A DNA stretch of 64,000 bases, taken from Thereva unica. Its lineage: Eukaryota; Arthropoda; Insecta; Diptera; Therevidae. The position numbers and the translations under genes were made by a program. This document shows positions 45,431 through 62,504 of the stretch, piece by piece (within the stretch, counting starts at the first letter, position 1; each line of letters begins with the position of its first letter). The notes under the pieces were generated by a model that saw only the letters and a list, made by a program, of their open reading frames with translations, had not been told where the DNA came from and ran no database searches. The DNA is taken from NCBI GenBank assembly GCA_949987705.1, contig OX465281.1, positions 97,992,326-98,056,325 on the forward strand. The letters are read 5' to 3'.

Positions 45431-46007
45431 GTAATGTGATTTGAAATTCTATTTCTTGTTGAGGGGTGCCTTTGCCGGCACTGCGATCTATTTCTTTGGT
45501 CTATTGTGCCATCCCCGTCTTTAAAAACCATTAAGGTTAAGGCTTCTAGTATAGCCTAAAACTGATTTAGGATTTCTGTCCCAAATCTCCCTGGGTGTAG
45601 GGAAGTCACGATGGAGGAGGCTCAATCTCTTCCTCGCTGTAGCCTCACAGTCGCACAGCAAGTGCTCCGCAGGTTCGGGAGCTGCTCCGCAGAACCGACA
45701 GCTTCAATCGGCCACCAGACCTATTTTATTTAGATGGTAGTAAAGCAAACAGTGGCCCGTCAAGAGTTCTGTTATTTTTTTAGCTCCCACCTGTTGAGAT
45801 GTAAAAGTTTGTCCGTTTTAGCTTTATCGATTTGGATGAATCTTTTAGCTCGACGAGCACCCTGCAGTTTCATTACCAATGTGACATTCGTGGCCCGGAA
45901 TCCACATCAGCGTGACACTGTTGTTCCTGCTGAGGAATTTCAGAGATTGAAGACAATCCAGGACTGTCTTTAATGACACCCTGTGAGATTTAATGGTCAG
46001 CAATGCA
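45431..46007 (-). pseudogene. LINE-D: RNase H and Cys/His tail of a different LINE
   Basis: The minus strand encodes an RNase H end (SVTLMWIPGHECHIGNETAG), then LTGHCLLYYHLNKIGL and the zinc-like tail CRFCGAAPEPAEHLLCDCEA, TARKRLSLL. That combination is known from R1/LOA/I-group LINEs and differs from LINE-A/B/C. Frameshifts are present. Its upstream part continues for about 40 bp after the Polinton (62463-62505), showing that the Polinton landed inside it. The plus-strand ORF 45734-45973 is a shadow. Confidence 0.75.
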
Positions 46008-46279
46008 AGTAGTATAGCAAAGAGAGTTCGGGACCACTTTCAGATTTCCATAGGAAAAAATCTTTTAATATATCATTTTTGATACCAAGTTTCCTATAAC
46101 ATACTTATCTGGCATAGAAAAATTAAAATTAACTTCAAACAAGCATCTTGAGCAATTTTTACAATATTCGGGGTTCGGGGCCACTTTCAGATTTCCATAG
46201 GAAAAAATCTTTTAATATATCATTTTTGATACCAAGTTTCCTATAACATACTTATCTGGCATAGAAAAATTAAAATTAA
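46008..46279. repeat. Polinton left terminal inverted repeat
   Basis: This TIR is built from two tandem units of about 150 bp, each starting GGGACCACTTTCAGATTTCC (second unit GGGGCCACTTTC) and containing TCCTATAACATACTTATCTG. It matches the right TIR with few differences. The unit continues past the TIR to about 46318 on this side. 46320-46660 is AT-rich noncoding sequence before the first gene's stop, with no other feature seen. Confidence 0.95.
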
Positions 46280-46663
46280 CTTCAAACAAGCATCTTGAAC
46301 AATTTTTACAATATTTTTCCTTATTCTTAGTGAATTCATTTACTCAAGTTTCCAAACAACATAAATAATAAAAGATTAAAGAATTTGAGTTAACTAAAAC
46401 CGCAAAAATATTCCTTATGTTTTCAATGATAAGTTGAGACTTAAAACCGCATTTCCTCATGCATTCAAAGATAACATAAACTTAAACGTGAAAGTATATT
46501 ATCAAAACCTTCTGATATATAATTTAAAAAAATTATTATGTTAATAAATGTTTTATTGTAAAATATTTTCATGTTCTTTTACTTAAATTTTTTGCTGAAA
46601 ATAAAGTAGAAAAAAGGTAGTTATAAAACACAAGTTGCTGGTTTAACATAAAATTTATTAAGT

Positions 46664-47134
46664 TTATTTCTTATGTACTAGAAATTTTCGAATAGCAAAT
46701 ACATTTTGTAGAGCACATTGTCCTTTATGGGTGAGACATGAAAACTCTTGATGTTTAAATTGAAGCCATGATAGTTTCGGACATTGTAATTCACCCTCAA
46801 TATCAAAAATGGTTGCACCGTCTCCAAGAAAATCCTTTACCCATCCGGTTTTTTCAAAGCCCTTGACATAAATATTTTTTTCAGCAAGTAAAGGTGCTAC
46901 AACAGTGTATAGGTAATGATATGGAGCATACCCATCATACCATCCGAAACCATGAAGATTGTGTTTTAACCAAAAGACTTGTTTTTTTATTTTGGGTGTT
47001 AAGTCTTCAAATTTAAAGGGTGGTTGGAAAATAAAATGTTGAAGCTTATCATCCGAAGAAAGAATTGCCAGCTCTTTAACAATAAACTTATTTAGATGGT
47101 CCTTGAATCCTTGGATATCAACTATTGCAGCCAT
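46664..47134 (-). CDS. Conserved Polinton-associated protein (IVDIQGFK family), function unknown
   Basis: I chose the Met at 47134 (MAAIVDIQGFKDHLNKFIVK), because the ORF's first Met (47161) lies inside the end of the upstream gene. About 156 aa, single domain. Conserved-looking blocks are IVDIQGF at the start, WLKHNLHGFGWYDGYAPYHY in the middle, and IYVKGFEKTGWVKDFLGDGA then CPKLSWL late. I recognise this as a small protein often encoded near arthropod Polinton capsid genes. The acidic IVDIQGF start and late Asp suggest a degenerate nuclease-like fold, but that is speculation. It overlaps or abuts the capsid gene's 3' end, so the two are probably co-transcribed. Confidence 0.7.
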   Translation of the reverse strand: MAAIVDIQGFKDHLNKFIVKELAILSSDDKLQHFIFQPPFKFEDLTPKIKKQVFWLKHNLHGFGWYDGYAPYHYLYTVVAPLLAEKNIYVKGFEKTGWVKDFLGDGATIFDIEGELQCPKLSWLQFKHQEFSCLTHKGQCALQNVFAIRKFLVHKK

Positions 47135-47138
47135 ATTT

Positions 47139-48338
47139 TTAAATAACTTTCTTAACTTCACTAGTGAGCGGATTATACTCGACTATTCGATCGTGGATAA
47201 GTAAGCAGTAAGCTGTTGTTTTCGATGGAATATTAGTGGAGGTTTTGAACTCTAATTTTATATCTACAGGACCCGTTTTGATAGCTTCATTTTGATGAGA
47301 ACAATCGATAACTGCAATTGGAGCGTGTTCGAGAAATTCTTTAGCTGAGAGGAGAGGTTGCGGTTGACGCCCAAAATAGGACTGTTGAAATTTCGCATAC
47401 ATGTTATATAGCAGGGCATACCGTTCTCGATCAAATTTCAAATTTAAATCATCGTATGGATAAGAATCAGAATTTAGGTGTACTTTAACATTAGTAAGGT
47501 TACAGTGATCAAACTTGCTTGCATCTTTTTTCCTATTATCTTTACGATCTGTTTGTAGGGCTAGTATAACATATCTCGGCTTTTCTAATTGTGCAGATAT
47601 TTTAACTGACCATGTGTGATCAGTTGTTATAGGTAACAACGGGTATTCGTACACATCCCAACTGCGGAATGGAGTTTGAATTGGACGTCCACTTTCAACA
47701 ATTTTCAGCAAAGAAAGCTTCTCATTGTCTGCTACAGATATATGTGGTATTTTCCATTGCAACTTGAAAATGTTAACAGCAACTTCATCGGTGGGAGCTA
47801 TAACAGCATTCTCATCTGTTCTGCTTCGAATTAAAATTAGTTCATGTTTAGCGTTTAAAATGATTTTTTTGTAGTCTTCAGCAAATCCTAACAACATATT
47901 AAGCGGTACACAGAAATTGAAGAACAACTTTTCATGTTTCATGAATTCTGAGGGCGACCAACCAGCATTGTAAAGCATTTTGCTTTCATTTTCATTTAAC
48001 GAGATATAGTTCTTCAACGTTGATACAATTCCGAGGTTTCTTGTTCGATCGATTTCCACTCCATTTAATTCGTAGCGAATTTCATCGAAAAGAAATGAGA
48101 AAACATTGTTTGTTAGGCTTGCATCAGCAGATTTTGTCCCATCAGTCTTAGCTACAGAGCCTTCAATATATATTAGACTCTCACTTGGTAGAATGTACAA
48201 ATCTTGATGTTGTACTACAATTCGAATCTCATCACTGTTTTTAAATGAAGTTAAAAATGGTGAATAGCTGTGGTATTCTAATTTTGATACACTGTTATCA
48301 TAAGAAACGTCTCTGTTAATATTCAATATTTCGCTCAT
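47139..48338 (-). CDS. Putative major capsid protein (jelly-roll), 399 aa
   Basis: The start is MSEILNINRDVSYDNSVSKL. The protein is beta-rich with no enzyme motif. Motifs: YIEGSVAKTDGTKSADASLT, LFDEIRYELNGVEIDRTRNL, LKNYISLNENESKMLYNAGW, FNFCVPLNMLLGF and SWDVYEYPLLPI. The ELNGVEID block and its place next to the penton-like gene match insect Polinton proteins that I take to be the double-jelly-roll capsid. The length is on the short side for that fold, so a fold prediction is needed. Intact frame, minus-strand virion block. Expected role: icosahedral shell. Confidence 0.6.
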   Translation of the reverse strand: MSEILNINRDVSYDNSVSKLEYHSYSPFLTSFKNSDEIRIVVQHQDLYILPSESLIYIEGSVAKTDGTKSADASLTNNVFSFLFDEIRYELNGVEIDRTRNLGIVSTLKNYISLNENESKMLYNAGWSPSEFMKHEKLFFNFCVPLNMLLGFAEDYKKIILNAKHELILIRSRTDENAVIAPTDEVAVNIFKLQWKIPHISVADNEKLSLLKIVESGRPIQTPFRSWDVYEYPLLPITTDHTWSVKISAQLEKPRYVILALQTDRKDNRKKDASKFDHCNLTNVKVHLNSDSYPYDDLNLKFDRERYALLYNMYAKFQQSYFGRQPQPLLSAKEFLEHAPIAVIDCSHQNEAIKTGPVDIKLEFKTSTNIPSKTTAYCLLIHDRIVEYNPLTSEVKKVI

Positions 48339-48473
48339 TTTTTTAATTTAAGTCCCAGAGATATTAAAAATTGTCTATTAGCTGAGCTTAATTTCGGTCT
48401 TATCCTTGGTAAAGTATCTAAATGACTGGAGGGGTGAACAGGTTTTTCTATCCTTTTATTATCACTGTCTCTG

Positions 48474-49166
48474 TTATATATCAACATGTTGAGGTCTCAA
48501 ATGTAATCTAACAGTAATGGTTTCTCCTCTAAAGTTTATTAGGTCACCGTCTTGATCAACTAATTTCAACACAAGCGAACTTATCCTTTTAACATTCACT
48601 GGCAAATAAATAACATTTTTAGGCACCTCAACTATTTTATAGCCGGGACCCACTTTAGGAGAAAATTCGTGAAGTGTGTGAACTGGTGTATTATTTATGA
48701 ATGACCCTGATACAAGGTTGCACTCAACACGAATCACATTAATTTTAATTATATTAACGGGTAAATTCGACACATTTATTATGTTAGGGTCTAATTCACG
48801 TTTACTAAACCCTAGCAACGGACCAATAGAGCGTGCTTTATTAAAATTTATTTTTTCTGTACTCTTTAGTTCAGTTTTTAAAGTGTTATTGTTAGCTACA
48901 ATAATAACTGATGGTTTGGTTTTAGTTTTAGTCAAATCTCTTTTAATAAGAGCTGCAATATCATCAATTTCATATGACCCATCTGAAATTTGTATAAGTT
49001 CATCTCCTACATGAAATAAGTTGTTTCTTCCATCTACATTCGGTATTGAATTATAAGTTTGTAAATCAATCAAGCCGCAAACATAGTCTGTATTAAGATC
49101 TAAAGGTGGGAAATATTCAGCTGTTAGTACAGACGAATTTCCAGTTAAAGTTAGTGTTAACGACAT
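48474..49166 (-). CDS. Minor capsid (penton-like) protein
   Basis: The start is MSLTLTLTGNSSVLTAEYFP (Met at 49166 or 49172). The protein has AEYFPPLDLNTDYVCGLIDL, a central RSIGPLLGFSKREL, and ends FRGETITVRLHLRPQHVDI. The pattern TAxYFPPIDL near the start, SIG-x-LLGF in the middle and TVRLHL at the end is the one I know from Polinton/adintovirus single-jelly-roll penton proteins. About 230 aa is the usual size. It lies directly upstream of the putative major capsid gene in the same direction; the two are expected to assemble together. Frame intact. Confidence 0.85.
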   Translation of the reverse strand: MSLTLTLTGNSSVLTAEYFPPLDLNTDYVCGLIDLQTYNSIPNVDGRNNLFHVGDELIQISDGSYEIDDIAALIKRDLTKTKTKPSVIIVANNNTLKTELKSTEKINFNKARSIGPLLGFSKRELDPNIINVSNLPVNIIKINVIRVECNLVSGSFINNTPVHTLHEFSPKVGPGYKIVEVPKNVIYLPVNVKRISSLVLKLVDQDGDLINFRGETITVRLHLRPQHVDI

Positions 49167-49251
49167 GATCAAATGGTAAGTCTAAATGAAAATGCTAATG
49201 TAATAGGTTTGAAGGTTTTATTTATACTTATATATAGATCAAATGTATAAA

Positions 49252-49605
49252 TTAAATTGTCTTAGAACGATTATAAAGGAACGTTAAGCACAGATGTCCA
49301 CAATTTACAGAATTATAATTTTGATATGCTTCATAGTTGTACACTATGTTATTTCCTAAATACTTTAAAAGTTCTTTTGGTGGTTGTAAGTTTCCGAAAC
49401 TGTCGAAGTATTCAATATCAGTTCCTTTTTTGTGGTATGCTACCCAGTGTGTCCCCCGACCAATGGAAGAATCCAAATTGACGATCCCACATTCATTTCT
49501 TCTAGGTCTTTTGGGAAGCTCATCAATCATAAAGACTCCTCTGAAGTGTGGTATGTATTGACCATGCTTATATAAATCGTATTCGTTTAATGGACGATAG
49601 CGTTC
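49252..49605 (-). CDS. Adenovirus-type cysteine protease (maturation protease), start unclear
   Basis: The Met-initiated frame begins at 49530, but homologous-looking sequence (LNEYDLYKHG, HFRGVF) extends in frame back to a TGA at 49606-49608, the stop of the core-protein gene. Catalytic parts are NLDSSIGRGTHWVAYHKK (His in GTHW), IEYFDSFG (Asp) and NSVNCGHLCLTFLY (Cys in NCG). These are the expected His, acidic residue and Cys of the adenain fold. It should process capsid and core proteins in the particle. No ATG exists between the TGA and 49530, so the N-terminal segment needs readthrough, a non-AUG start or splicing. The C-terminus is short. Confidence 0.85.
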   Translation of the reverse strand, partial: ERYRPLNEYDLYKHGQYIPHFRGVFMIDELPKRPRRNECGIVNLDSSIGRGTHWVAYHKKGTDIEYFDSFGNLQPPKELLKYLGNNIVYNYEAYQNYNSVNCGHLCLTFLYNRSKTI

Positions 49606-50439
49606 TCAGTAGTTTTTTGTCGGTGGATTTAGGTAAAGTCCTAACCCCTTTCTATATGGTTTTAAATATAGACCTTTTCCACTTTTCCCTAAAGCTATTG
49701 CCTCCATTGTCTGATTATGACGTTTATTTTCCTCCAATTGTTGTTTAGCCTTACTTGCATCATTAACAGCTTTTACAATTCCAGCTGTACCACCTGTTAA
49801 CGCACCTAAAGCAGAAAGTCCTGTAAAAATGGGGATAAGAGGTAAAACTCCTCCAGTTCTTGGTATAGGAATAATGCGAGGTGGTTTTGTGCATTTTCTC
49901 TTTCCTCTAAACACATTTCTGGTAGCACCAAGAGCGAGTTGTATAGCTTCCTTTAAAGAGCCTGGCTTCTTTGATTTCAATATATTTCGTGCTTCCCGAA
50001 CTCCTTTTTGTAATGTTAATTTAATTTTAGGTTTTTTAGTTGAACGTTTTGCTTTTAAGCCCATCCCAAGTTTAAGTTTTGTCTTCATAGCGTTTGTTAC
50101 AAGCCAGGCATTAAGTCGTTCACCAAATAATGCGTCACTAGATTTTACTCTCTGCCACGCTTTTTCTGCTAATATTCGATCAGCGATATGACGATCTTCA
50201 ATATTTTTATGTTTGTTATATGCAATATCGTGCTCTTTGCAGGCGGCGTCAAGAGGATTTATACCAGGAGCACCTCTAGCTACTCTTTCTAACAATTTAG
50301 TACCAGGACCGCAATACTGATAACCAGGCAAATGCAATTCGAAAGGTAAATTGCTTATTGCTGTGTTCAATAAACCTTTCCCCTTATATATTTTATGTTG
50401 TGGGCGGTTTTTATTAAAATTTTTCTTATGATCTATCAT
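49606..50439 (-). CDS. PLA2-pX core protein: parvovirus-like phospholipase A2 fused to adenovirus pX-like tail
   Basis: Residues 37-75 carry the calcium-loop pattern LPGYQYCGPGTKL and the catalytic helix DAACKEHDIAY (His70, Asp71), as in parvoviral VP1 phospholipase domains. The middle is highly basic (about 115-185, many Lys/Arg, DNA-binding type). Residues 195-223 (GGVLPLIPIFTGLSALGALT) are hydrophobic, and the end has KGLYLKPYRKGLGLYL, like adenovirus pX/mu and adintovirus core proteins. 277 aa, intact, first gene of the minus virion block. Expected roles are genome condensation and membrane breach on entry. It ends in a TGA directly in frame with the protease. Confidence 0.85.
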   Translation of the reverse strand: MIDHKKNFNKNRPQHKIYKGKGLLNTAISNLPFELHLPGYQYCGPGTKLLERVARGAPGINPLDAACKEHDIAYNKHKNIEDRHIADRILAEKAWQRVKSSDALFGERLNAWLVTNAMKTKLKLGMGLKAKRSTKKPKIKLTLQKGVREARNILKSKKPGSLKEAIQLALGATRNVFRGKRKCTKPPRIIPIPRTGGVLPLIPIFTGLSALGALTGGTAGIVKAVNDASKAKQQLEENKRHNQTMEAIALGKSGKGLYLKPYRKGLGLYLNPPTKNY

Positions 50440-50539
50440 TCAGCGAAACGTTTTGCAAAATCTATGTGTGTATTCTAGCTTCGATACCTTAAAACTAATA
50501 TAAAATTGATGGATTCAAGTATATATATTAGTTTTCACT
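50440..50539. promoter_or_regulatory. Divergent promoter region of the Polinton
   Basis: Only 100 bp separates the oppositely directed PLA2-pX and ATPase genes. TATATATA-type sequence lies about 10-20 bp before the ATPase ATG (50519-50530), and TATAAAATTGATGG lies near 50491-50503. Both virion blocks are probably driven from here. No other element is recognised. Confidence 0.45.
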
Positions 50540-51223
50540 ATGAAATTCGTTAAGCAACAAGTGTCTTTACCAATTAGAAATATAGACATAAAATCAGAGG
50601 AACTTAAACAAAAACACGGATCATTATTACCCCATACTATAAGAGCTATCGTTGCAGGACCTTCTAATTGTGGTAAAACCAATCTTATGATCAGCCTTAT
50701 CGAACAACCGAACGGACTCAAGTTTGAAAATATTTATGTCTATTCAAAGTCATTATATCAACCAAAGTATGAGTATTTGAAGCAACTTATAACACCCATA
50801 TCCGGAATGGGTTTCTATACATTTTGTGAAAATTCTAAAGTAATTTCACCAGAGAAAGCAAAATCAAATTCTATTTTCATCTTTGATGATGTTGCATGCG
50901 ACAAGCAAAACAACATACGATCATATTTTTGTATGGGACGACATAATGGCATCGATAGTTTTTATCTTTGTCAAACATACACACATATACCTAAGCACTT
51001 AATTCGAGACAATGCGAATCTTCTTATTCTATTTAAGCAAGATGAAATGAACTTAAAACATGTCTATAATGATCATGTAAACACCGACATGCCCTTTAAT
51101 ACTTTTAGAAATGTATGTGCAGAGTGCTGGAAGGATAAATATGGCTTTCTTGTGATCGATAAAGATAGTCTAATAAACAAAGGACGCTACCGTAAAGGAT
51201 TTGATTTGTACATTATGATATAA
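50540..51223 (+). CDS. FtsK/HerA-type genome-packaging ATPase, 227 aa
   Basis: Walker A AGPSNCGKTNLM at residues 39-50 and Walker B SIFIFDDV at 111-118, followed by the FCMGRHNGIDSFYLCQTYTH segment (strand with sensor Gln/Thr), match the A32-like packaging ATPases of Polintons and related dsDNA viruses. It pumps DNA into preformed capsids. The frame is intact and of usual length, with an AT-rich leader. It opens the plus-strand block and is followed by the tandem-repeat leader of the next gene. Confidence 0.95.
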   Translation: MKFVKQQVSLPIRNIDIKSEELKQKHGSLLPHTIRAIVAGPSNCGKTNLMISLIEQPNGLKFENIYVYSKSLYQPKYEYLKQLITPISGMGFYTFCENSKVISPEKAKSNSIFIFDDVACDKQNNIRSYFCMGRHNGIDSFYLCQTYTHIPKHLIRDNANLLILFKQDEMNLKHVYNDHVNTDMPFNTFRNVCAECWKDKYGFLVIDKDSLINKGRYRKGFDLYIMI

Positions 51224-51248
51224 ATACAATAGCTTACTGAAATACTTA

Positions 51249-51396
51249 TTAGACCAGTTTAAGCAGTTAACAGACTCGTTAAAGCAGTTAACAGACCCGT
51301 TAAAGCAGTTAACAGACCAGTTAAAGCAGTTAACAGACCCGTTAAAGCAGTTAACAGACCCGTCAAAGCAGTTAACAGACCCGTTAAAGCAGTTAA
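51249..51396. repeat. 21-bp tandem repeat between ATPase and the 315-aa gene
   Basis: About seven copies of GTTAAAGCAGTTAACAGACC(C/A), with minor variants, fill the intergenic space and end 6 bp before the ATG at 51403. Each unit carries the palindrome GTTAAC. In the downstream gene's frame each unit has a stop, so it is not coding; the minus-strand ORF here (LLTALTG repeats) is an artefact. Possible transcription-factor or terminator array. Confidence 0.9.
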
Positions 51397-51402
51397 CAAA
51401 AA

Positions 51403-52350
51403 ATGGTGCGCAAAGGAAGATCTGAAGTGAAAAATAAAGAAGAAACTATAAGGAACATTATAAAAACTAGAAATATCATACGAAAGAAATTTCGGGCTAT
51501 AAAAACCGGAAGAGATGAAACAGAAGCTCAACTAGAAGAAACATTTAAACCTATAACAAACCCGTTAAAGGAGTTCGTGACAAAAGTGAAACAAGAATCA
51601 GATCATGAAATTAAATTTGAGCCCAAGGAAGAATATAATGAATATGATAATCTAAAGTCAACTCCCAAATCCACTTTTCCAAAAATGGAACCTACAAGTA
51701 CACCACTAAAACATAAACAATTTTCTTTAATGTCAGAAGATGAATTTGCAACACCTATTCACTCAAGAACTTTAGTTGAAAGAGCTGATAGAACTCTTAA
51801 TTTATCCACTGGATTGGCTGATAAATATTTTCAATGGTATATTGAAAAAAATCCAAAAGTTGATTACACTTATGGAGTTTACTTTGATAATAATAATAAT
51901 GAATGGAAAATCGGAGATTCAAAGGTTGAATATAACGAAGATAATTTTGTTATTAAAGGAAAGCCTTACACAATAACACTAGGTTTACTCGAACTTCTTT
52001 TTATGAAAAACCCTTCTAAAAGTCTATATACTAAAGATGATTTGTCAAATTATGAGACTATTCTAAACGATACTAATGCTCATAGACGAGGATATTCGAT
52101 GGAAGAACAAATAAAGGGGAATAGAGGTTCCAAGTACAGGGAAATTATTAGCAAGTTTTTATATCGCAAAGGAACGGGTTTAATGCATTTACCTAAGAAT
52201 AATATTGATCATATTTATTGGGATGATCCAAATGAACTCGTAGACCGATTGCGTCTTCTTTTTGCTTCCCAGCATGCTGGGAACAATAATCATCATAATG
52301 AAATCATGTCAATAACTGAAGAATTAAGAGAAGCTAACGTTATAGAATAA
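51403..52350 (+). CDS. Conserved arthropod Polinton protein (DUF8207-like), 315 aa
   Basis: The N-terminus is very basic (residues 1-40, MVRKGRSEVKNKEETIRNII). The linker (50-130) is acidic and Ser/Pro-rich. The C-terminal domain (140-315) has YTYGVYFDNNNNEWKIGDSK, YTITLGLLELLFMKNP, NAHRRGY, KGNRGSKYREIISKFLY and YWDDPNELVDRLRLLFASQ, then NNHHNEIMSITEELREANV. I recognise this domain as widespread in insect and spider Polintons, catalogued (from memory) as DUF8207. Function unknown. The NEIMSITEELREANVI end resembles a short recruitment helix. Intact frame. Confidence 0.8.
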   Translation: MVRKGRSEVKNKEETIRNIIKTRNIIRKKFRAIKTGRDETEAQLEETFKPITNPLKEFVTKVKQESDHEIKFEPKEEYNEYDNLKSTPKSTFPKMEPTSTPLKHKQFSLMSEDEFATPIHSRTLVERADRTLNLSTGLADKYFQWYIEKNPKVDYTYGVYFDNNNNEWKIGDSKVEYNEDNFVIKGKPYTITLGLLELLFMKNPSKSLYTKDDLSNYETILNDTNAHRRGYSMEEQIKGNRGSKYREIISKFLYRKGTGLMHLPKNNIDHIYWDDPNELVDRLRLLFASQHAGNNNHHNEIMSITEELREANVIE

Positions 52351-52387
52351 ATACAATGCATCTTTCATTTTCGATTTTAATTAGATC

Positions 52388-52966
52388 ATGAGCGTTGACA
52401 AGTTCGGGAGATTTTCTAAGCAATCAAAATTAGGACCAGTTGGTGAGAGGGGTCCAAGAGGTTTACCTGGGGAGCGAGGTCCACAAGGTTCGCCTGGTAT
52501 AGGATTCCAACTTACTTCTGATGGCGATTATGATCTTAATCATAAAAGTGTTAAGAATCTTAAAAATCCTGAGGAAAATGAAGATGGTGTAAATAAATTA
52601 TATGTTGATAAATGGGCGGACTTAATTAACACTACCATACAAGCGTTAAAAGAATTAACAAATAGAACCCTAGTTGAAGAATTGCAGAAGGAAAGAAATA
52701 ATTTAGAAAAGGAGTTGATACAAATAAGAAAAAATATAGAAAAAGAAATAGTAAGCATATATAATATAATAAAAACTACAAATGAAAAAGAAAAAGTAGA
52801 AAATCAGCAGTTTGCTAAGCAGTCAGTAGAGGATTCGCAAAATAAGTTAAAAGCTCATATTGAAGAGGGATTGCAACAGATTTGGGATGCTTTAAAAGGA
52901 TTAATAAAGGTGGAATCATTAACAATTTCCAAGGGAATATCTCATGAACCACCTCATGATGAGTAA
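52388..52966 (+). CDS. Collagen-like fibre/spike protein, 192 aa
   Basis: Residues 16-39 are eight Gly-X-Y triplets (GPVGERGPRGLPGERGPQG...). They are followed by FQLTSDGDYDLNHKSVKNLK and DGVNKLYVD, a tail-fibre-type beta prism motif, and by a long coiled coil (about 65-165) rich in Glu/Lys/Asn heptads. Trimerising collagen plus coiled coil is the architecture of a viral fibre that binds host cells, comparable in role to the adenovirus fibre. No C-terminal knob is evident. The 3' end overlaps the integrase start by 23 nt. Function inferred from architecture. Confidence 0.75.
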   Translation: MSVDKFGRFSKQSKLGPVGERGPRGLPGERGPQGSPGIGFQLTSDGDYDLNHKSVKNLKNPEENEDGVNKLYVDKWADLINTTIQALKELTNRTLVEELQKERNNLEKELIQIRKNIEKEIVSIYNIIKTTNEKEKVENQQFAKQSVEDSQNKLKAHIEEGLQQIWDALKGLIKVESLTISKGISHEPPHDE

Positions 52967-53875
52967 AAGACAAGTTGTAGATGAATTACATAAATCAGCA
53001 CGCAAAAATTTTAAAAGGCGACGTGTTATTATTAAAGGACTGGACGACCTCTGGCAAGCAGATTTGGTTGAGATGGGTGTCTACTCTCAACAAAATAATG
53101 ACTATAATTTCGCGTTGACTGTCATTGATACATTTTCCAAATATGCGTGGGTTATTCCTGTGAAGAGAAAAACTGGTGTTGAAGTTGCTGGGGCAATGAA
53201 AACTATTTTTGAAGACGGTAGAATACCAAGAAATTTACAGACCGATGATGGAAAGGAATTCTTTAATACTAATTTTCAAAACTTGATGAAGAAATATAAA
53301 GTTAATCATTATTCAACATATAGTCCTTTAAAGGCTTCAATAGTGGAGCGATTTAATAGAACAATGAAAGGGATAATGTGGAAAGAGTTTAGCATGATAG
53401 GGACATATCGGTGGATTGATATAATAAAGGATTTGGTGTTAAATTATAATCGTAAAAAGCATCGTACGACAAAAATGAAGCCAATCGATGTCAACAAATC
53501 AAACGAAAAGCAAGTACTTTTAACAGCATATAATCATATAAAAGTTACTCATCCATCTAAATACAAAGTTGGAGATTTTGTTCGAATAAGCAAATATAAG
53601 CATATTTTCGAAAAAGGTTATACACCAAATTGGACCACTGAAATATTTAAAATTCGCAAAATACAGCTTACAAACCCAGTAACATATCATCTATAAGACC
53701 ACCAGGGGCACCCCATCAAAGGAGGATTCTATGAGTTAGAATTGCAAAAGACAAAAAATCCACACGTTTACTTAGTAGAAAAAATCTTGAAAAGACGTGG
53801 AGATAAGGTTTATGTTAAATGGTTAGGGTTTCCATCAAAAGACAATTCATGGATTAATAAAAAAGATGTATTATA
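52944..53875 (+). pseudogene. Polinton integrase with chromodomain, interrupted by one stop
   Basis: Catalytic core: ADLVEMGVY (D40), QTDDGKEFFN (D101) and ASIVERFNRT (E135), a DDE integrase with 33 residues between the second Asp and Glu. The C-terminal basic SH3-like part SKYKVGDFVRISKYKHIFEK is typical. A TAA at about 53694-53696 ends the open frame, yet the same frame goes on with DHQGHPIKGGFYELELQ and a chromodomain (YLVEKILKRRGDKVYVKWLG, FPSKDNSW) to 53875. The stop removes the chromodomain, which would target chromatin marks. The start at 52944 may be a few codons upstream of the functional one; 52962 or 52959 also have Met. Confidence 0.9.
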
Positions 53876-53916
53876 ATACAAAAAAAATATACAATAAAAT
53901 AAAATTATAGATAATA

Positions 53917-54111
53917 TTACAAAAGTTTTTGCTTTTTCTTATTTAATATCGGGTTTAAAATTTCAGCAGTTTCTCTAATTCTTCGGTTGAAGCGAAATCG
54001 ATCAACAGCATACTCTTTCCATGGCCCCTTTCTAGCAGTCTGGTAAGCATACCTCCAAACATACATGATGTGTACTTCCGGTGTTAGATTAAATCGCACA
54101 TTTTTAGACAT
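53917..54111 (-). CDS. GADD34/PPP1R15-like PP1-targeting protein, 64 aa
   Basis: The start is the ATG at 54111; a TTG two codons earlier is in frame. Residues 3-7, KNVRF, form a PP1-docking RVxF motif. VHIMYVWRYA then TARKGPWKEYAVDRFRFNRR (25-44) follow with the order and spacing of the conserved C-terminal domain of cellular GADD34/PPP1R15 and of viral proteins known to copy it. That domain brings PP1 (with actin) to phosphorylated eIF2alpha and restores translation during stress. The protein is nearly all domain, so it looks like a captured minimal effector. It lies at the end of the polymerase-side minus block. Recognition is by motif; no search was run. Confidence 0.8.
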   Translation of the reverse strand: MSKNVRFNLTPEVHIMYVWRYAYQTARKGPWKEYAVDRFRFNRRIRETAEILNPILNKKKQKLL

Positions 54112-54113
54112 AG

Positions 54114-54386
54114 TCAACAGTTAGGTTTGGTAAATCCCTGATAAAGTTTCATAAGTTTTTGAACTTCTTGTTTACGTCTCCAAACAAAGTAACATTCGCA
54201 CGTATCCGGTCCCTCTATTGCATTATTATTAGACCAAGGGCAACTTATGTAGTGATTCCCAAATTGAGATTCTATTTGTTTCATATTTTTGTATGGTTTT
54301 AAAAAATCATTATATTTTTCAACTTTTTCTTTATGCTCATCCCAAAGTATGCCATCATATTTTTCTAAAAACTGATCAATATCCAT
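54114..54386 (-). CDS. Small unknown Polinton protein, 90 aa
   Basis: MDIDQFLEKYDGILWDEHKE starts a protein with an acidic/basic helical N-half and a Cys-containing C-half (HYISCPWSNNNAIEGPDTCE, CYFVWRRKQEV). I do not recognise the family. Its TGA lies 2 nt before the ATG of the GADD34-like gene, so the two are likely translated from one transcript. Frame intact. The three Cys and one His could bind metal, but the spacing is not a known finger. Confidence 0.55.
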   Translation of the reverse strand: MDIDQFLEKYDGILWDEHKEKVEKYNDFLKPYKNMKQIESQFGNHYISCPWSNNNAIEGPDTCECYFVWRRKQEVQKLMKLYQGFTKPNC

Positions 54387-54430
54387 CTTTACTCTTTCAC
54401 TTCTAAAACCGAACTAAATTGTTCTATTAC

Positions 54431-54772
54431 TTAAGAGATGCTCATATTATATGTTTGCTTCATTTGCTTCAAATCAACAAGTTCAATGTCACTTTTATGG
54501 TTAGGATAATGCTGTCTTATTGACTCCACTTCACCATTACTTAGAACTCTCTCAGTTTCAAACTCGTGGTATTCATAACACGATATTTTCAATGAACGGC
54601 TTTCATAATTGCTGTCATATGTACAGCTAATAGTAATTGACTTATCTTCATCAAATTCATATAAATAAAATATGAATCCTAAAGTGGCTGTATAGCTGAA
54701 TGGGTAAAATTTCTCATTAGGAATATGCCAAAGTCAGATAAGTAATTCTCTAATTACTAAGTGCAAATTCAT
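54431..54772 (-). pseudogene. Unknown Polinton ORF of 113 codons with one internal TGA
   Basis: From the ATG at 54772 the frame reads MNLHLVIRELLI, a TGA (54734-54736), then LWHIPNEKFYPFSYTATLGF, IFYLYEFDEDKSITISCTYD and ends QMKQTYNMSIS. The 98 codons after the TGA are open and look protein-like (beta-strand pattern, no repeats). Either a small gene with one nonsense change, or its real start is spliced or non-AUG. Not recognised. It sits between PolB and the 90-aa gene in the same direction. Confidence 0.4.
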
Positions 54773-55256
54773 GAAATGTAGGAGAAAAACTATAAAATTT
54801 TTGAATTCTGCTATACAGTAACTTTTTAAATGTTATCTTATTTAAAAAACATAAACCTAATTCATATCAGCATTTATCCCAAGTTCAACGACATTCTTTA
54901 AAATGTGCAATTCGCAACCTACCTCAACATATTTCATATCTTCACCCATTCTCAGTTCAACGACATTCTCCAAAAGATTTCTCCATTACAATTTCAAGTT
55001 CACGTTATACTAATTTTCTTATCAGTTTCTTGTTAATGACAAGTCAAAATTATTCTCTGTTTTTATCAAACCCTCAGGACTTGACCAGAAATTATGTAAG
55101 AAGTGTAGTACAGTATGCAGTTTGTGAAATTTGATATAATTTTTTAATTCAAGAAATTACATAAAATTGAATTATGAGGTATTTTCTTTAATAAAACGCT
55201 TTGACTAGATAATTGAAAAGTATATTTTCCCTATTATATATGGATATAATTAACAG
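54773..55256. other. AT-rich noncoding stretch downstream of PolB
   Basis: No credible ORF. The phrase AGTTCAACGACATTC occurs twice (near 54890 and 54955), an imperfect 65-bp direct repeat. Possibly the PolB 3' UTR and the leader of the small-gene cluster. Confidence 0.5.
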
Positions 55257-55640
55257 CTATTCATGTATTATATTATAATGCCCCCATGGTAAGGTATCTG
55301 TGGAATTTTTTATAATATATCGCTTATCATCATAAGCAGATAAGGCAATTTTGTTTTGTCTTATACTGTACACTTTATGTCTTTTCGATTGTATAGTATT
55401 TTGAATTCTGCATATTTGATCAAAATTTCTTAAACATTCTAAATAATCTTCAAACTGAATTGTTTTTTCAATTACGTTACTTTTTACACCTTTTGCTTTC
55501 TTAATTAAATCCTTTCCCTCAACTCTAATACTATACATTTTTGATCTTAAGCCTACAAATTCTGTAAATATCTTTCCATTTAATTCATCCTTCATAAGAC
55601 CGATTTCTTTTTTATTCAGTAATGGTATATTAAACATATT
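55257..55640 (-). pseudogene. PolB C-terminal fragment
   Basis: It continues the PolB core after a frame change at about 55640: FNIPLLNKKEIGLMKDELNG, EFVGLRSKMYSIRVEG, KKAKGVKSNVIEK, and ends around LSAYDDKRYI and LPWGHYNI. This is the usual end of Polinton PolB (KSKMY, then KGV, then DDKRY and a TLPWGHY-type finish), so the 3' end is complete. Confidence 0.85.
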
Positions 55641-55641
55641 A

Positions 55642-56858
55642 TTATATAAGTAATCGGAATTTATGAATATTATCTCTAATTATATTATAAATATTATTAC
55701 ACTTTAATTCATATATTAGGGAATCTGTATCAGTATATAAAACTTTAACATTTGAATAATGTAACCTTTTACACATAAAATTATAATGGAAGTCATATAA
55801 AAGGGTTTTTGATATATCTAAAATGCACATACCTATATAAATCGGTTTATTTAAAAAAATTTCAGTTTTAGTCAATCCAATCGCAACTAAATTATTATCG
55901 AAAATTGTACGACTATGGAAATTAGGAGCAGCTATTAAAACTTTAGCTCCATATCGCCCCAACCATTTCGACACTAATTTTACATTGCAATGTTTGCGTA
56001 CGTTTTCCATTGCCTTACCGAATACAGCGTTATTTTTTAATTTATATTGATGTTTTTCGAATTCATTCTTAGCATTTTTTCGTAATTCCGTATTTAAATC
56101 AATGAACGGTTTTAGCCAGGGAGATTGATTAAATTTCAAAGCCCTGTGAATTTTTTTTAACTTGAGCCCTGCAGAAAGACATTGCTTAAGATTTCTGTAA
56201 TGTATTATATATTTTTTTCTATCAAAAAGGGTTGTTAGAAGTTTCTTTTGCTTTGCATTAGGAGGTAGTTCTTGATTTGGACAAAAAGGTAAATCTTTAT
56301 GAATGTCATGTAAGTATGTAGGATATTCTATATCAACTTCTAATATGTACCCGATTGGTGAATCATCTGGAATTTCATGTATGTTAATACTATTCACATT
56401 AACCCATTGAAACCCATCAGTTGGTAAAAATTGAGACATCGCCCATCCATACAAATTGTTAATATCAAAATACATAAGATATTTTATTTCATCATTTTGA
56501 TCATAGTTTTTCATATATTTATTGTTAGCCTTCGCATATCTATTAGAACATTGACTTACCCCACCACGTATACCACGTTCTATAAACATTAAAATATCGA
56601 TATCTGTTATTAATTCTAGTTTCACTTTTGTATATTTCAACATTGAATCCCATGCGAACCCTGGTAAGGTATAATAGTGAGCTGGATCTAACTTATAAAT
56701 TTCCAAACATTTCTTTCTAAAATTTTCGAATATATCTGCTAACAATAAAATATCTGTTTTCAGATACAGATCAGAGTACTCTCCTAAAGTTTGAATATTA
56801 AAGGTTTCCCAAATTAGTTTTGCATGGGTATATTCCTCTTCTGAAATATTCGTGTCAT
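55642..56858 (-). pseudogene. PolB polymerase core
   Basis: The segment begins at the TTAA junction in [20 protein letters not shown] and holds [20 protein letters not shown], motif A DINNLYG, the [20 protein letters not shown] palm segment, motif [15 protein letters not shown] and motif C YTDTDS (about residues 156, 304 and 402 of the drawn frame). The drawn ORF starts 73 nt further right at 56931, but those first about 23 codons belong to the inserted element. Confidence 0.9.
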
Positions 56859-56862
56859 TTAA

Positions 56863-58206
56863 GGGCCTAATACACTCAATCGAGCAATTATAGGGTATCG
56901 CGCGCCCGCGAATATTAAGAAAACTATCCAACCAAATGAAATAATTTAAATTAGGTATTTTTAAGAAAACATAAATCTAGCTATTCATGGTGGAAAATTT
57001 TAATATTTTTTATTAGTATATTAGTTATAATGGTTCAAAGTTCCGTACCTGCGCCCGGAAAATACTCCTATTTAGGTGGAAAAATTTTAAATTTTTTTTA
57101 ATGTACGATAAACTTAAATCGATTATCTAGCTATTCATGGTGGAAAATTTTTGAATTTTAGCCTTCTTTCATGAGTAAATTATGTTTTAAAAATTGTCCA
57201 CAAAATTTAAGAACGAAAATTCCCTAAAATTCTTCAGTTTTAATACATCAAATTTCCGCTCCAAGCAAATCTCTGCGCTAGTTGTATTCTGTATAAAGCA
57301 TTTGCGTAATCTTACACGAGATGCGTTTGTATAAGTGAGAGCTTCTGCTTCGGCTTTTGCAGGGGAAATTTCAAACCTTTTTTGTTGCAGGCATGGATGG
57401 TGATCGTATTTTCGGGAAAAAATAAAATCTGAGGAAAAATCGGTTTGTTTGGCAAGAATTTTAATGACTTGCTTGATGGTGATTTCCTTGATTTGAGAAT
57501 ATAGGGATTCTTGCCCGGTGGTCAGGTAGTGATCAATCGGTGTTTATTATCTTGGCTTTATGAAAAACCCAAGAAAATATTTTAATGGCAAATACTACCT
57601 TCATGAAATAATTAAGTTTTATGACATCCTTGTTTTTCGTTGTCTTTTTAGCCGTAACAACTTCCCGGAACTAGATTCGCAAAAAAGGTGTATCCCTTGC
57701 ACAGGTATTTTACAACATGAGTGTTGATAAATTTTGCGTAAATTCATTTTTTATGGTTTTTATTATTTTTGTATGTAAATATGGGCTTTGCTGGAATATT
57801 TTATCATATCCCATGGCAGGAACAAGTTCGTAGAGTGCATTACTGCGACATTAATTCAATTTACATTCATAATTATCTAACACTGGCTTCAATTTCTAGC
57901 CGGCGACACCGCAGAAGAGATTTCTTGAAAGTCGCCAGCAAATTTACCTCGGGCACGCACTCATAAAGTAAAGCCCAACAAGACATACGAATGCAGCCGA
58001 ACCCCTTTTTTGTGCAAAGATTTCCCCTCCGGCGGCCGTGTTGTGCACTGCAAGCAGTGCACAACAGGTAATTTTGACTGTGTTAGAAGGTTTTTGAGAT
58101 TGGGTTAGTTTAATTTTGTGACTGTATTTTTTTTTAAGCTTCCCTTAATATTTTGTTGTTGGAACTGAATTTCATGTTGGACTTCGTCGCTGAGTGTATT
58201 AGGGCC
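56863..58206. mobile_element. TTAA-flanked MITE-like insertion in PolB, 1344 bp
   Basis: Ends are GGGCCTAATACACTCA and, inverted, GGCCCTAATACACTCA. TTAA lies at 56859-56862 and 58207-58210, and removing the element plus one TTAA rejoins the PolB frame (FYNKL to NDTNIS). Inside, CTAGCTATTCATGGTGGAAA occurs twice (56976 and 57120), and a 28-bp hairpin lies at 58039-58066. No transposase ORF; 57140-57700 is AT-rich with nothing recognised. TTAA targeting suggests piggyBac-type mobilisation, though the GGGCC ends are unlike the CCC ends at 2145. Confidence 0.8.
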
Positions 58207-58210
58207 TTAA

Positions 58211-59740
58211 CTTGTTGTAAAAACCTGTCTTTGGGGGTAAGGAAGTTTCTTCCAACTTTTCCCAGCTTTCAACATAATCGTATGGAAATACCCCCTTGCG
58301 GGTTAACAACTGAAATTCGGATGAAGTTAAATGACTCCATTCACTTTTTGTCAGTAACATTTTCTCAGAGGGTAAAATTGATGCTAATTCCTCTAAAGAG
58401 CTTGCCATAAACCTAAAGGAGTCAATGAATCGAAATTTAATATCACTATTAGCAATATATTTCGTAAATGAAATATAGCGTTCTTTATTTATTGGAAGCA
58501 GAGTAATGTTACCCTCAAAAGCTTTAGCTAACTCCTTTATAACAAAGTGTGAATCATAACCTGTTAAATTGTGAAAGACTATGGGGATGACTTTTGAATT
58601 TCTATAATTAAGGTTACAACTTTCATGAGCTAACCCTCGAAAACATCCTGTAAAATGACAATGATCTTTCACACGTTTATCAGTTTTACGAAATGGATGT
58701 TCACAAATATGACAATGAGTGACTTTACTTATTCTACTTTTTTCAATACTTGTCAATTTTATTGGCGCAATATTTTTATATATATCTTCTAGATTTTGTG
58801 CAATTACTTTCAATTCATTCACAAACCAAAGTTGACAATCTAAACCTCTAAAACTACGAAAATAATTTAGATTGTTATCATATGAACATTTGAAATAATA
58901 TCCTACACTATGCGCTATATGTTCTTGAAATTCAGTTGTATTTTGATGTTTTGAACTATCTTCTTCAATAGGCTTCAATAGACATTCAATATCTGCATAT
59001 ATAATAAAAGGTACTACTTCTTTAAAATTGTAATTTTTAAAACTTAACCACTTATTTTCATTATTTGGTAAAACTATTTTACAATCATTTAACTGTTTAC
59101 ATTCCTTTATATGACTTCGTAATTTGTCTTTTGTATCAAAATAATGCAAACATCTTTCACATATATGTTTCGAACCATTATGTTTTGAAATTTGACTAGA
59201 AACTAAACGAGATAAATTTTTTATCCAAACAAAATGGTATTTCATAACAATATCTTCATTATCATTAAGCATATTGGAATTATTATTTTTATTAGCTTCA
59301 TCATAATAAAATTCTTGAATCATTAGTAGATTTACATGTGATCTCCGTTTTAATTTAGTTAAACGAAGTGGCACGGTAAAAAAATTTCCATATTTTTTAT
59401 TTAAACTAAAGACATTAATTGATATCTCGTTTAGTTTCTCAAAACGATTAATTTGTGAAATTGTCATTGGAAATGAAATACCTTTCAAGTTTAATTTCAA
59501 TGAATAATGAGGATAACTTGATATACGATTGCTATGAGTTTTTGCTGGGTAAAGAGCTGATATCACTGCCCAAGCAAAGCATGCTTCATCAGAATTTTTT
59601 ACATTTATGCAGGCGAACTTTCTTCTAATTTGCAGGGGTAATTCTATATAAGATGATCCTCTAAAGGCTTCATATTTATTTATATTAATAATAATATTTA
59701 CTATAGAGACATGTGTCCCACCCACTATCTTTTTCTTGAA
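58211..59740 (-). pseudogene. PolB finger and exonuclease region
   Basis: It contains ACFAWAVISALYPAK, HICERCLHYFDTKDKLRSHI (C2H2-like, residues 196-216), the ExoI box YADIECL (251-257), the Cys/His cluster 346-378, ExoII HNLTGYDSHFV (393-403) and PYDYVESWEKLEETSLPPK. The right end is displaced from the N-terminal frame by an indel near 59720; its left end is the TTAA insertion. The plus-strand ORF at 58153-58410 is a shadow. Confidence 0.9.
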
Positions 59741-60198
59741 ATTCTTCAAGATTATTTAGAATAGATTCATATATATTCTTCTGAAACCAGGTTTCTAAAT
59801 TCGTGTCTTTTTCAACCTTGTTATTGTTTGTATTAATATATTTATATTCGTAAATCACTTCGTCACCCCGTTTTATGGCAAATTCTCCACAAAAAGTACT
59901 ATTGATTTTTAAATTATTGTGATGTTTCAAAATCTTTTTTATATTAATAACAAATAAATGTTTAACATCATTCAGAAATTCTTTAGGATCTTTATATTTT
60001 AAATTAATCACTAAAGCAGTTTGAATTCTTGATTTGAATGCAGATTCCAAGAACTTCCACTTCACTAGATCATTATCTTTTGTTTTATGAAGTCTAATTT
60101 TCAACTGTTGTTTGAATCCCTTCATTAATCCAACACAATTCTCCAAAAAGCGCTTCCTTCCAATGGATTTACATTTTTTAAGCTGATCGGAGAGTAAT
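59685..60198 (-). pseudogene. PolB N-terminal region (exon 2 start)
   Basis: The frame is open from about 60198 (LLSDQLKKCKSIGRKRFLEN) through GFKQQLKIRLHKT and NLEEFQEKDSGW, the conserved Polinton PolB N-terminus, and is lost near 59720 by frameshift. The drawn start at 60146 is a TTG with no reason to be used. The natural start is probably upstream across a short intron. Confidence 0.8.
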
Positions 60199-60254
60199 CT
60201 AGCATTTAAAATTTTTGTATTATATGCAAATAACTTTCAAAATTTTTAACTCAC
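60199..60254 (-). other. Predicted 56-nt intron in PolB
   Basis: Donor GTGAGT at 60254-60249 and acceptor ATGCTAG ending at 60199 on the minus strand. Splicing would link a 40-codon frame from the ATG at 60376 (MSSLIKVSSEMVENMRAIL...) in phase to the PolB frame at 60198. Without it the first frame stops right after the donor. 56 nt is a usual intron size in flies. Prediction from sequence only. Confidence 0.5.
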
Positions 60255-60376
60255 TTAATATTTTCTTTGCAATATTTTAACCACTTTTCTAATTCGCGAG
60301 GACATTCGATTACTGTGCGTAATATTGCACGCATGTTTTCGACCATTTCACTACTAACTTTAATTAATGAACTCAT

Positions 60377-60686
60377 TACTACTGCGTTTAATTCAAAACT
60401 GTAAGTACAAAATATGTATGGTAAAGTTTATATACTTCTCATACCAATCTGATAAGTATATAGCAAACCTCAAAAGCATACAAACAACGAAGAAACCGCA
60501 GCCAAAACAAAATTCCAAAGCTATCCAACAGAAAAATGAAAACCAAGAACCAAGAACCAAAACCAATAATGAAAACAAAAATCTGAAATTGTGATAAAAA
60601 GAATACTAATAAACAAAAAATATAATTTTTATTGATATAATTTTTACTGTACAAGTAAATTATAATACAATTTTCTTAAAGTAGTA
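60377..60686. other. AT-rich region between PolB and the SSB-like gene
   Basis: The plus strand is A-rich (AAACAACGAAGAAACCGCAG, AACCAAGAACCAAAACC). A 75-codon plus ORF (60367-60594) is low-complexity Lys/Gln/Asn and overlaps the PolB start; I do not support it as a gene. It may hold the PolB promoter. Confidence 0.4.
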
Positions 60687-61112
60687 TTATGCATTATCAC
60701 TACTTTCACTACTTATTTCATCAGCATCACTATCATTCTTCAAAATATCCTTAAAAGGGTGCTCCAGTTGCGTAAATGTCAACTTTCCATTAGCATTATC
60801 ATCCCGATGTATATAGAAATTTTTGCTTTCAGTTATTCTTGTCAAAAAACAATCCTTCAAATCATTGAAGTTCGATGGTAAGAAAAAACTGTAGTCTTCC
60901 AATTCCAATAATACTTTTTCCCCGTAGCGAGTATTTTGCCTCCTTGCAGTTACAATTTTATATTTTTTTAATATCTTCATATCACTCAATTTTAAAGTTG
61001 GTTTAAAAGAAATAGTATTTAAACAACGTAAAATATCTATATCTTTATTTGTTTTAGATTTCGATATTTTTTTGCTGTTTAATTTCACAACTTTACCACA
61101 TCTTCGAGACAT
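60687..61112 (-). CDS. Putative ssDNA-binding (OB-fold) protein with acidic tail, 141 aa
   Basis: The N-terminus is basic (MSRRCGKVVKLNSKKISKSK). The core KYKIVTARRQNTRYGEKVLL then ELEDYSFFLPSNFNDL (about 50-85) has the strand pattern Y-x-I-x8-TRYGE-x-VLLELED-x6-LP seen in small OB-fold proteins. The C-terminus is strongly acidic (DSDADEISSESSDNA), as in many single-strand-binding proteins that recruit replication partners. It stands just upstream of PolB in the same direction. I infer a replication accessory role; the family itself was not verified. Confidence 0.55.
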   Translation of the reverse strand: MSRRCGKVVKLNSKKISKSKTNKDIDILRCLNTISFKPTLKLSDMKILKKYKIVTARRQNTRYGEKVLLELEDYSFFLPSNFNDLKDCFLTRITESKNFYIHRDDNANGKLTFTQLEHPFKDILKNDSDADEISSESSDNA

Positions 61113-61786: not shown

Positions 61787-62119
61787 ATGGAAGTGGAAAA
61801 TGGAAATCTTCATCATGAAGTCAATTCTGACTTCGATGAGCTTATTGAACCGCCACGATTAGATGATTGTAGACTTCTGGAATGGTACAGAGGAAGAATT
61901 AGTGAATCAACTAAATTTTTCTGCGTAACTTCCGGACACATAAATAATCTTTGTAAGATATGCTGCTTTCCAGAAATTAATAGATTACCGTTACGGTTAC
62001 TTACAATTGACTCAAAAATATTGTATAATTTCAACTCTTTAGTTAATGAATTTATAAAAAATAAGGAGAAATATTGTAAAAAATGTTCCAGATGCTTGTT
62101 TGAAGTTGATTTTATATAA
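61787..62119 (+). CDS. Right-end Cys-rich protein, 110 aa, unknown
   Basis: I chose the ATG at 61787 (AAAAATGG context), rather than 61715, whose extension is hydrophobic and overlaps AT-rich leader. The body has an acidic start (MEVENGNLHHEVNSDFDELI), WYRGRISESTKFFCVTSGHI, then CKICC and a C-terminal CKKCSRCLFEV, so two Cys clusters about 50 residues apart may bind zinc. The last about 45 nt of the gene are repeated inside the terminal inverted repeat units (see findings). Frame intact. Family not recognised. Confidence 0.6.
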   Translation: MEVENGNLHHEVNSDFDELIEPPRLDDCRLLEWYRGRISESTKFFCVTSGHINNLCKICCFPEINRLPLRLLTIDSKILYNFNSLVNEFIKNKEKYCKKCSRCLFEVDFI

Positions 62120-62192
62120 TAATAAACAAAATTACCATTTTCATTAATTCTTTCCCAATAAATCTGAAAGTGATCCCGAACCCTCTAATAAT

Positions 62193-62462
62193 TAATTTTA
62201 ATTTTTCTATGCCAGATAAGTATGTTATAGGAAACTTGGTATCAAAAATGATATATTAAAAGATTTTTTCCTATGAAAATCTGAAAGTGGTCCCGAACCC
62301 CGAATATTGTAAAAATTGCTCAAGATGCTTGTTTGAAGTTAATTTTAATTTTTCTATGCCAGATTAGATATTATAGGAAACTTGGTATCAAAAATGATAT
62401 ATTAAAAGATTTTTTCCTATGGAAATCTGAAAGTGGTCCCGAACTCTCTTTGCTATACTACT
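62193..62462. repeat. Polinton right terminal inverted repeat
   Basis: About 270 bp, inverted match of 46008-46279, with the same two-unit structure (GGTCCCGAACCCCGAATATT joins the units at about 62293). A third decayed piece (AATCTGAAAGTGATCCCGAA) lies just inside at 62160-62182. Confidence 0.95.
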
Positions 62463-62504
62463 AATGCAGCTTAACTTCAATATCTCAACACTAGGAACTC
62501 GCCG

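Follow-up and report, generated by a model that had tools for sequence, protein, structure and literature searches.

The 64,000-nucleotide stretch of the Thereva unica genome analyzed here (the window) carries a Polinton with a short open reading frame (ORF) that, judged from its sequence, is the C-terminal domain of PPP1R15/GADD34. The encoded protein is probably a minimal PPP1R15-type subunit of the Polinton, directing PP1 to eIF2alpha. The finding bears on the open question of what animal Polintons are, live viruses or transposons that carry capsid genes. Known viruses employ PPP1R15 to undo the translational arrest induced by stress; its presence in three Polinton families, with signs of constraint and, in one family, next to an inhibitor-of-apoptosis (IAP) gene, would mean that host defence confronts these elements at the level of the cell. 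This suggests that these Polintons must fight a host-imposed shutdown of protein synthesis as viruses do, and it would extend the viral capture of PPP1R15 from herpes-, asfar-, and insect viruses to Polintons. The ORF also provides a small protein on which this function can be tested directly.

The PPP1R15-like ORF and its carrier element

The first-pass annotation, made from the letters of the window, had described a 64-codon minus-strand frame with four motifs. This frame was confirmed; it runs from an ATG at 54111 to a stop codon at 53917-53919 and contains KNVRF at residues 3-7, VHIMYVW at residues 13-19, ARKGPW at residues 26-31, and DRFRFNRRI at residues 37-45. The residue map comprises the RVxF motif (3-7), the VH pair (13-14), Trp31, and the eIF2alpha-binding pattern (27-45), together with F41 and R44 of the first actin helix; there is no second actin helix. 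The PPP1R15-type C-terminal domain that had been proposed for the frame is supported by a significant match to Pfam PF10488 (26.3 bits, E 6.9e-6), which lies barely above the curated cut-off of 26.1 bits. Other forms of the gene, described below, scored 27.3 bits (a family C copy), 28.4 bits (the host exon), and 22.4 bits (a family B copy, below the cut-off), and 33 of the 34 members of the homolog alignment matched PF10488 at E 0.01. In a search of solved chains, residues 3-57 of the ORF matched human PPP1R15A (GADD34, chain 7nzm_C) with E 2.2e-9, and the ORF matched viral DP71L with E 2.9e-9 and PPP1R15B with E 6.7e-5. The profile of the 34-member alignment matched PPP1R15A with E 8e-20.

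Homologs of the ORF were also found in other sources, outside the genome of the window. When all six reading frames were scanned for the eIF2alpha-binding pattern published for the PPP1R15 family, as it is quoted in PMC5346070, the window held it a single time, within this ORF, and none of 200 base shuffles of the window held it. The ORF is short and its score is close to the Pfam cut-off, as might be expected of a spurious frame in AT-rich DNA with a chance likeness to PPP1R15. This explanation is refuted by the GADD34 match, the shuffles, and the homologs elsewhere, and its probability is negligible.

On the chain alignment, Trp31, F41, and R44 align with the invariant Trp, F592, and R595 of GADD34, and L52 and L56 align with two leucines that are important in DP71L. 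Counted on this alignment, the ORF has counterparts of all GADD34 contact residues except R612. Fold prediction gave a free N-terminal stretch bearing the RVxF motif, followed by helices at residues 17-27 and 31-63 (pLDDT 79), and the predicted fold can present the motif for docking. None of the three outcomes that the first-pass annotation had named as refuting (no HMM hit, no conservation in siblings, or an unsuitable fold) was observed.

The element spans 46008-62462 (16,455 bp) and is bounded by terminal inverted repeats with an identity of 98-99% in the outer part and 87% in the innermost part (Table 1). Both ends start with AGTAGTATAGC, and the AATGCA adjoining each side is a perfect 6-bp target duplication, which is a Polinton trait. 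A 147-bp unit occurs twice in tandem in the left repeat (46026-46315), and the right end of the element has a similar, though not identical, doubling. Polintons are defined as elements of 15-20 kb with genes for an integrase, type B DNA polymerase (PolB), ATPase, protease, and capsid (PMC4028283). The size of the element, its ends, and its genes (capsid, ATPase, phospholipase A2-like protein, and rve integrase) identify it as a Polinton, and the Polinton setting that had been assumed for the ORF was thereby borne out. In its integrase, ATPase, and capsid genes, size, inverted ends, and 6-bp duplication, it resembles Polinton/Maverick elements and adintoviruses.

Table 1. Polinton features in the window, by position (".", no strand).
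Feature	Position	Strand	Evidence
Left target-site duplication AATGCA	46002..46007	.	Identical 6 bp at 62463-62468
Left terminal inverted repeat, internal 147-bp tandem units	46008..46348	.	Inverted repeats and tandem repeat
165-aa ORF	46664..47161	-	ORF; 39% match in one family B locus, L018
Major capsid protein, double jelly roll	47139..48338	-	PF21738 E 5.9e-146
Putative cysteine protease, adenovirus-type, short open piece	49252..49530	-	PF00770 E 0.0029, below cut-off
Phospholipase A2-like protein	49606..50439	-	PF08398 E 3.2e-13
Packaging ATPase	50540..51223	+	PF04665 Pox_A32 E 1.5e-8
315-aa ORF, families A and B	51403..52350	+	tblastn: ~47-49% in B, 87-100% in A
ORF with short collagen-like stretch	52388..52966	+	PF01391 E 0.0007, below cut-off
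rve integrase	52944..53873	+	PF00665 E 3.9e-13; match to C1:98045272-98046198
PPP1R15/GADD34-like ORF	53917..54111	-	64 aa; Pfam, structure-chain, motif and alignment matches
ORF90	54114..54386	-	Directly upstream of the PPP1R15 ORF (TGA, 2 nt, ATG)
Putative type B DNA polymerase region, several open pieces	55257..60146	-	ORFs; YTDTDS motif
141-aa ORF	60687..61112	-	ORF
Right terminal inverted repeat	62037..62462	.	Terminal 23 bp identical to left end
Right target-site duplication AATGCA	62463..62468	.	Matches left copy

The PPP1R15-like ORF faces the integrase, with ~45 bp between the ORF and the end of the integrase match. A frameshifted integrase was considered and dropped; the integrase of the window instead has one in-frame TAA, and its open frame stops at 53696. 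At E 0.01, no match to a DNA polymerase family was obtained with two open pieces of the putative polymerase region, and the YTDTDS motif of this region is common to the polymerase of family C, which matches PF03175. No Pfam family matched the 315-aa and 141-aa ORFs. With its polymerase in pieces, its weak protease match, and the TAA in its integrase, the copy in the window is partly decayed, although its PPP1R15 ORF is intact.

Copies, subfamilies, and paired genes

A search of the 910-Mb host genome with the PPP1R15-like ORF yielded 572 candidates, of which 150 were scored as matches. No internal stop occurs in 141 of the 150 scored copies, a share that is biased upwards because these copies are the best matches. 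The loci inspected were one host PPP1R15 exon and 36 distinct Polinton places (L002-L009, L013-L029, and L032-L042; the copy in the window is L008). Polinton genes lie beside the ORF at all 36 places, and an integrase match at 35; the exception, L009, has no integrase in its 1.5 kb flank and carries ORF90 and the polymerase.

The 36 places fall into three subfamilies, A (n = 14, including the window), B (n = 11), and C (n = 11). The ORF has the same spot and orientation in A and B, where it is directly behind the integrase and faces it at 13 of 14 and 11 of 11 places, respectively. In family C, it occupies another, constant place on the strand of the integrase (11 of 11), mostly ~0.6 kb (0.4-0.9 kb) past the end of the integrase match. 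The gene thus has a conserved place in sibling Polintons, in line with the first-pass annotation, with C differing from A and B in where that place is. Integrase identity to that of the window is 67-74% in B and 61-67% in C.

The RVxF motif is present in nearly all copies (13/14 A, 11/11 B, and 11/11 C). The eIF2alpha-binding pattern with the invariant Trp was found in 12/14 A and 11/11 B copies and in 0/11 C copies; the two A copies that miss it (L038 and L039) have substitutions within the pattern, and in all 11 C copies D-T replaces D-R at one position. The HR signature of the second actin helix (R612/RARA region) occurs in 11/11 B copies and the host exon and in 0/14 A and 0/11 C copies. 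The second actin helix is also missing in P0002, P0003, P0008, and P0016, short proteins from other sources that consist of PPP1R15 only; other animals' Polintons or viruses are a possible origin of these four.

An integrase search of the 910 Mb scored 127 places among 8,743 first-look candidates, and this number probably reflects a great abundance of Polintons or of relatives of the integrase in this genome. Twenty integrase places were chosen by eye as being without a listed PPP1R15 match, and 12 of these were inspected. Four of the 12 carry the ORF (in two pieces in L056), four have its 3' part only, and four have no PPP1R15 ORF within ~515 bp, so that the gene is widespread in these Polintons without being universal. 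The last four (L045, L046, L048, and L052) have an integrase frame of 308-309 aa and look like a Polinton subfamily without PPP1R15 at that place. In L045, the integrase is instead followed by another open frame, at least 129 aa long.

In families A and B, the ORF is preceded by ORF90, which was found upstream at 14/14 A places (59-100% identity; L014 and L015 carry its end only) and 10/11 B places (43-48% identity; missing in L023). The stop codon of ORF90 lies 2 nt before the PPP1R15 ATG at 7 of the 14 A places. In family B and part of the A copies, ORF90 continues past the PPP1R15 start codon in a different reading frame, a hint of coupled translation. ORF90 has conserved cysteines (CPWS...GPDTCxC) and no Pfam family above cut-off. 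In family C, the preceding gene is a 125-aa BIR/inhibitor-of-apoptosis ORF (PF00653, E 1.3e-12; L025:2516-2893, plus strand), present at 11/11 loci and in pieces at L027, L028, and L034. At 10 of the 11 loci, a long BIR frame overlaps the PPP1R15 start through an ATGA and ends on its TGA. Searched against the genome, the BIR ORF produced 395 candidates; 150 of them were scored as matches, and 145 of these 150 are stop-free.

The family C element (L025/L043/L044) encodes a PF00665 integrase, a PF03175 PolB, a PF00770 protease, and a PF04665 A32 ATPase; its capsid gene had no Pfam match. The C capsid is only ~20% identical to that of the window (E 0.006), which makes C a far relative with an oddly similar integrase, and the polymerase pieces of A and C have little in common beyond one motif. 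As judged from these identities, Polinton lineages that are only distantly related may have exchanged their integrase genes.

The gene might counter an arrest provoked by the element's own germline expression rather than by cell-to-cell infection, which is compatible with the function proposed here, as the biochemical function would be identical. The many genomic copies fit this transposon setting, as does the lack of a relative in IMG/VR viral contigs, which were scanned with the ORF, the capsid protein, the 34-member alignment, and an integrase alignment. On the other hand, capsid and packaging ATPase genes are kept, the protease is kept in family C, and the BIR neighbour in that family fits infection, and we consider a purely germline role rather unlikely. 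A Polinton-weighted alignment gave one match in IMG/VR (L057), a chance RKGPW in what is presumably a DNA-binding/HNH-type protein, and this was dropped. A scan of bacterial genomes gave one integrase-like match with 23% identity.

Selection and origin of the gene

The host PPP1R15 exon (L031) is located at C1:223369970, with no Polinton neighbours within 8.5 kb. A splice acceptor precedes this exon, whose first residue is the V of VRF and which has the second helix and a longer tail; 29 of 55 residues are identical between this exon and the ORF of the window. A host gene fragment was dropped as a candidate on account of the splice acceptor, tail, and surroundings of this exon. In animals, the ~70-residue PPP1R15 core is reported to form a separate exon and to be sufficient to inhibit the stress response (PMC4394352), so that a single exon would be enough for capture. 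The Polinton copies are intron-free, and in undamaged copies the nearest ATG, taken as the assumed start, is four residues before the V at which the exon begins.

Selection was examined in 20 undamaged loci, four of family A and eight each of families B and C. Within families, dN/dS was below 0.55 in 60 of 62 pairs; one pair had a value of 1.59 and one had no synonymous change. A significant excess of synonymous changes (p 0.0001 to 0.046) was found in 6 of 10 pairs that have no locus in common, although these pairs may have tree branches in common. The other four pairs had no significant excess, and L023/L036 leans the opposite way with 1 synonymous and 6 amino-acid changes. In comparisons between subfamilies and with the host, 44-58% of residues are kept, whereas synonymous changes have reached saturation. 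There are thus signs in these sequences that selection keeps the PPP1R15 ORF functional.

These data also bear on whether the gene could be a captured host exon carried as a functionless passenger. A core that is a single exon starting at VRF would be easily captured by chance, and the gene is missing or a remnant at 4 each of the 12 further integrase places, with 4 of 10 pairs without significant constraint. However, the gene occurs in three Polinton families, nearly all scored copies are open, if with the bias to good matches described above, and the synonymous excess holds in most of the disjoint pairs. A passenger is therefore very improbable.

Phylogenetic analysis used 36 rows and 53 columns, with 15 of 33 inner branches open; 9 of the 34 homologs were left out as a duplicate (P0001) or as very divergent or truncated (P0019 and P0028-P0034). 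The first-pass annotation had asked whether the gene is closer to the host's own PPP1R15 than to viral ones. In this tree, A and B group with the host exon (support 96/95), and C groups instead with P0003 (98/94) and P0002 (92/81), both from other sources. A single origin of A, B, and C was not rejected (p-AU 0.284). In a separate tree of the 34 homologs, the forms without the second helix did not group together. The different place and orientation of the gene in C, together with this grouping, hint at two captures.

It is quite possible, if tentative, that the A/B and C lineages, which are deeply divergent, captured PPP1R15 separately and hold it in a compact counter-defence slot beside the integrase, paired with ORF90 or BIR, as part of a virus-host arms race that is going on now. 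The A/B form would then stand close to the host's own gene in descent and the C form elsewhere, common to other species, and PPP1R15 would come second in a pair of genes that overlap or abut, with the C pair joined by ATGA. If so, the pair would act against apoptosis as well as translational shutoff.

Proposed function and relation to known systems

We infer expression of the ORF, PP1 binding, eIF2alpha dephosphorylation, and the kinase countered, as follows. The protein would be made in the active phase of the element, and its KNVRF motif and VH pair would dock on the catalytic subunit of host PP1. Trp31 and the helix formed by ARKGPW...DRFRFNRRI would be set against actin and eIF2alpha, and PP1 would thereby be directed to strip the inhibitory phosphate from eIF2alpha. 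Protein synthesis could then be kept going when GCN2 or PERK react to the element. The first-pass annotation had also named PKR as a kinase to be countered, which is a poor fit to insects, as these use GCN2 and PERK.

In GADD34, RVxF holds PP1 and the invariant Trp determines the position on PP1, and contacts of F592, R595, and R612 with actin stabilize the helices that meet eIF2alpha, according to PMC8500838. Changes of PP1-binding residues or C-terminal deletions are described to strongly reduce the function of DP71L (PMC5346070), and deletion of the second-helix region is described to have abolished actin binding in fly PPP1R15 (PMC4394351). For R15A, binding of PP1 by the C-terminal ~50 residues without any rise in activity towards eIF2alpha is reported by one laboratory (PMC7615683), whereas another group reports that the core is active with actin (PMC10998612). 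RARA is missing from DP71L, an accepted viral member, so that the second helix is not decisive for family membership, and DP71L is active in cells without RARA (PMC5346070), which gives the family A form a precedent that works.

Without the second actin helix in A and C, specificity for eIF2alpha may be lost, and the protein could bind PP1 and serve another substrate, or sequester PP1 from host partners. The R612 helix is missing in both families, family C departs from the eIF2alpha pattern, and the authors of PMC5346070 suggest that DP71L deletion mutants may still bind and sequester PP1. However, DP71L is reported to dephosphorylate eIF2alpha even without RARA (PMC5346070), its two key leucines have counterparts in L52 and L56, and the pattern is matched in most A and all B copies. 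Another substrate or sequestration is therefore unlikely, and recruitment of PP1 to eIF2alpha appears to be the most likely role of the ORF protein. The BIR neighbour in family C is also a host-response gene and is counted in support of this role.

The Polinton ORF is similar to cellular PPP1R15 (GADD34, CReP, and insect PPP1R15) in its RVxF motif, VH pair, invariant Trp, eIF2alpha pattern, and first actin helix. It differs in that it lacks the N-terminal region and the intron, starts four residues before VRF, and sits in a Polinton, and the A and C forms have no second helix. The insect-virus gene coGV-gp036 is carried, as judged by its name, by what we take to be a granulovirus. From their description, this gene and herpes simplex virus ICP34.5 are like the Polinton gene in being viral captures of the 70-residue core (PMC4394352), and ICP34.5, unlike the ORF of the window, is stated to keep the RARA motif (PMC5346070).

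The titles and abstract openings in the literature searched, limited to best matches for broad topics, described neither PPP1R15 nor an IAP-PPP1R15 pair in Polintons. Word searches found no such gene term in the text of PMC11071296 and PMC11071308, and neither GADD34 nor inhibitor of apoptosis in PMC8363768. Viral capture of the PPP1R15 core is already known, including in one insect virus, as described in PMC4394352.

The short form of African swine fever virus DP71L (70-72 aa) is, like the Polinton ORF, a stand-alone core of ~70 aa, described as having no RARA motif (PMC5346070). The carriers differ, a Polinton for the ORF and a large cytoplasmic DNA virus for DP71L. A stretch of RKGPW...AVDRFRF is common to both proteins, and the WRYAYQTARKGPW stretch is nearer to the relatives P0015 and P0018 than to DP71L.
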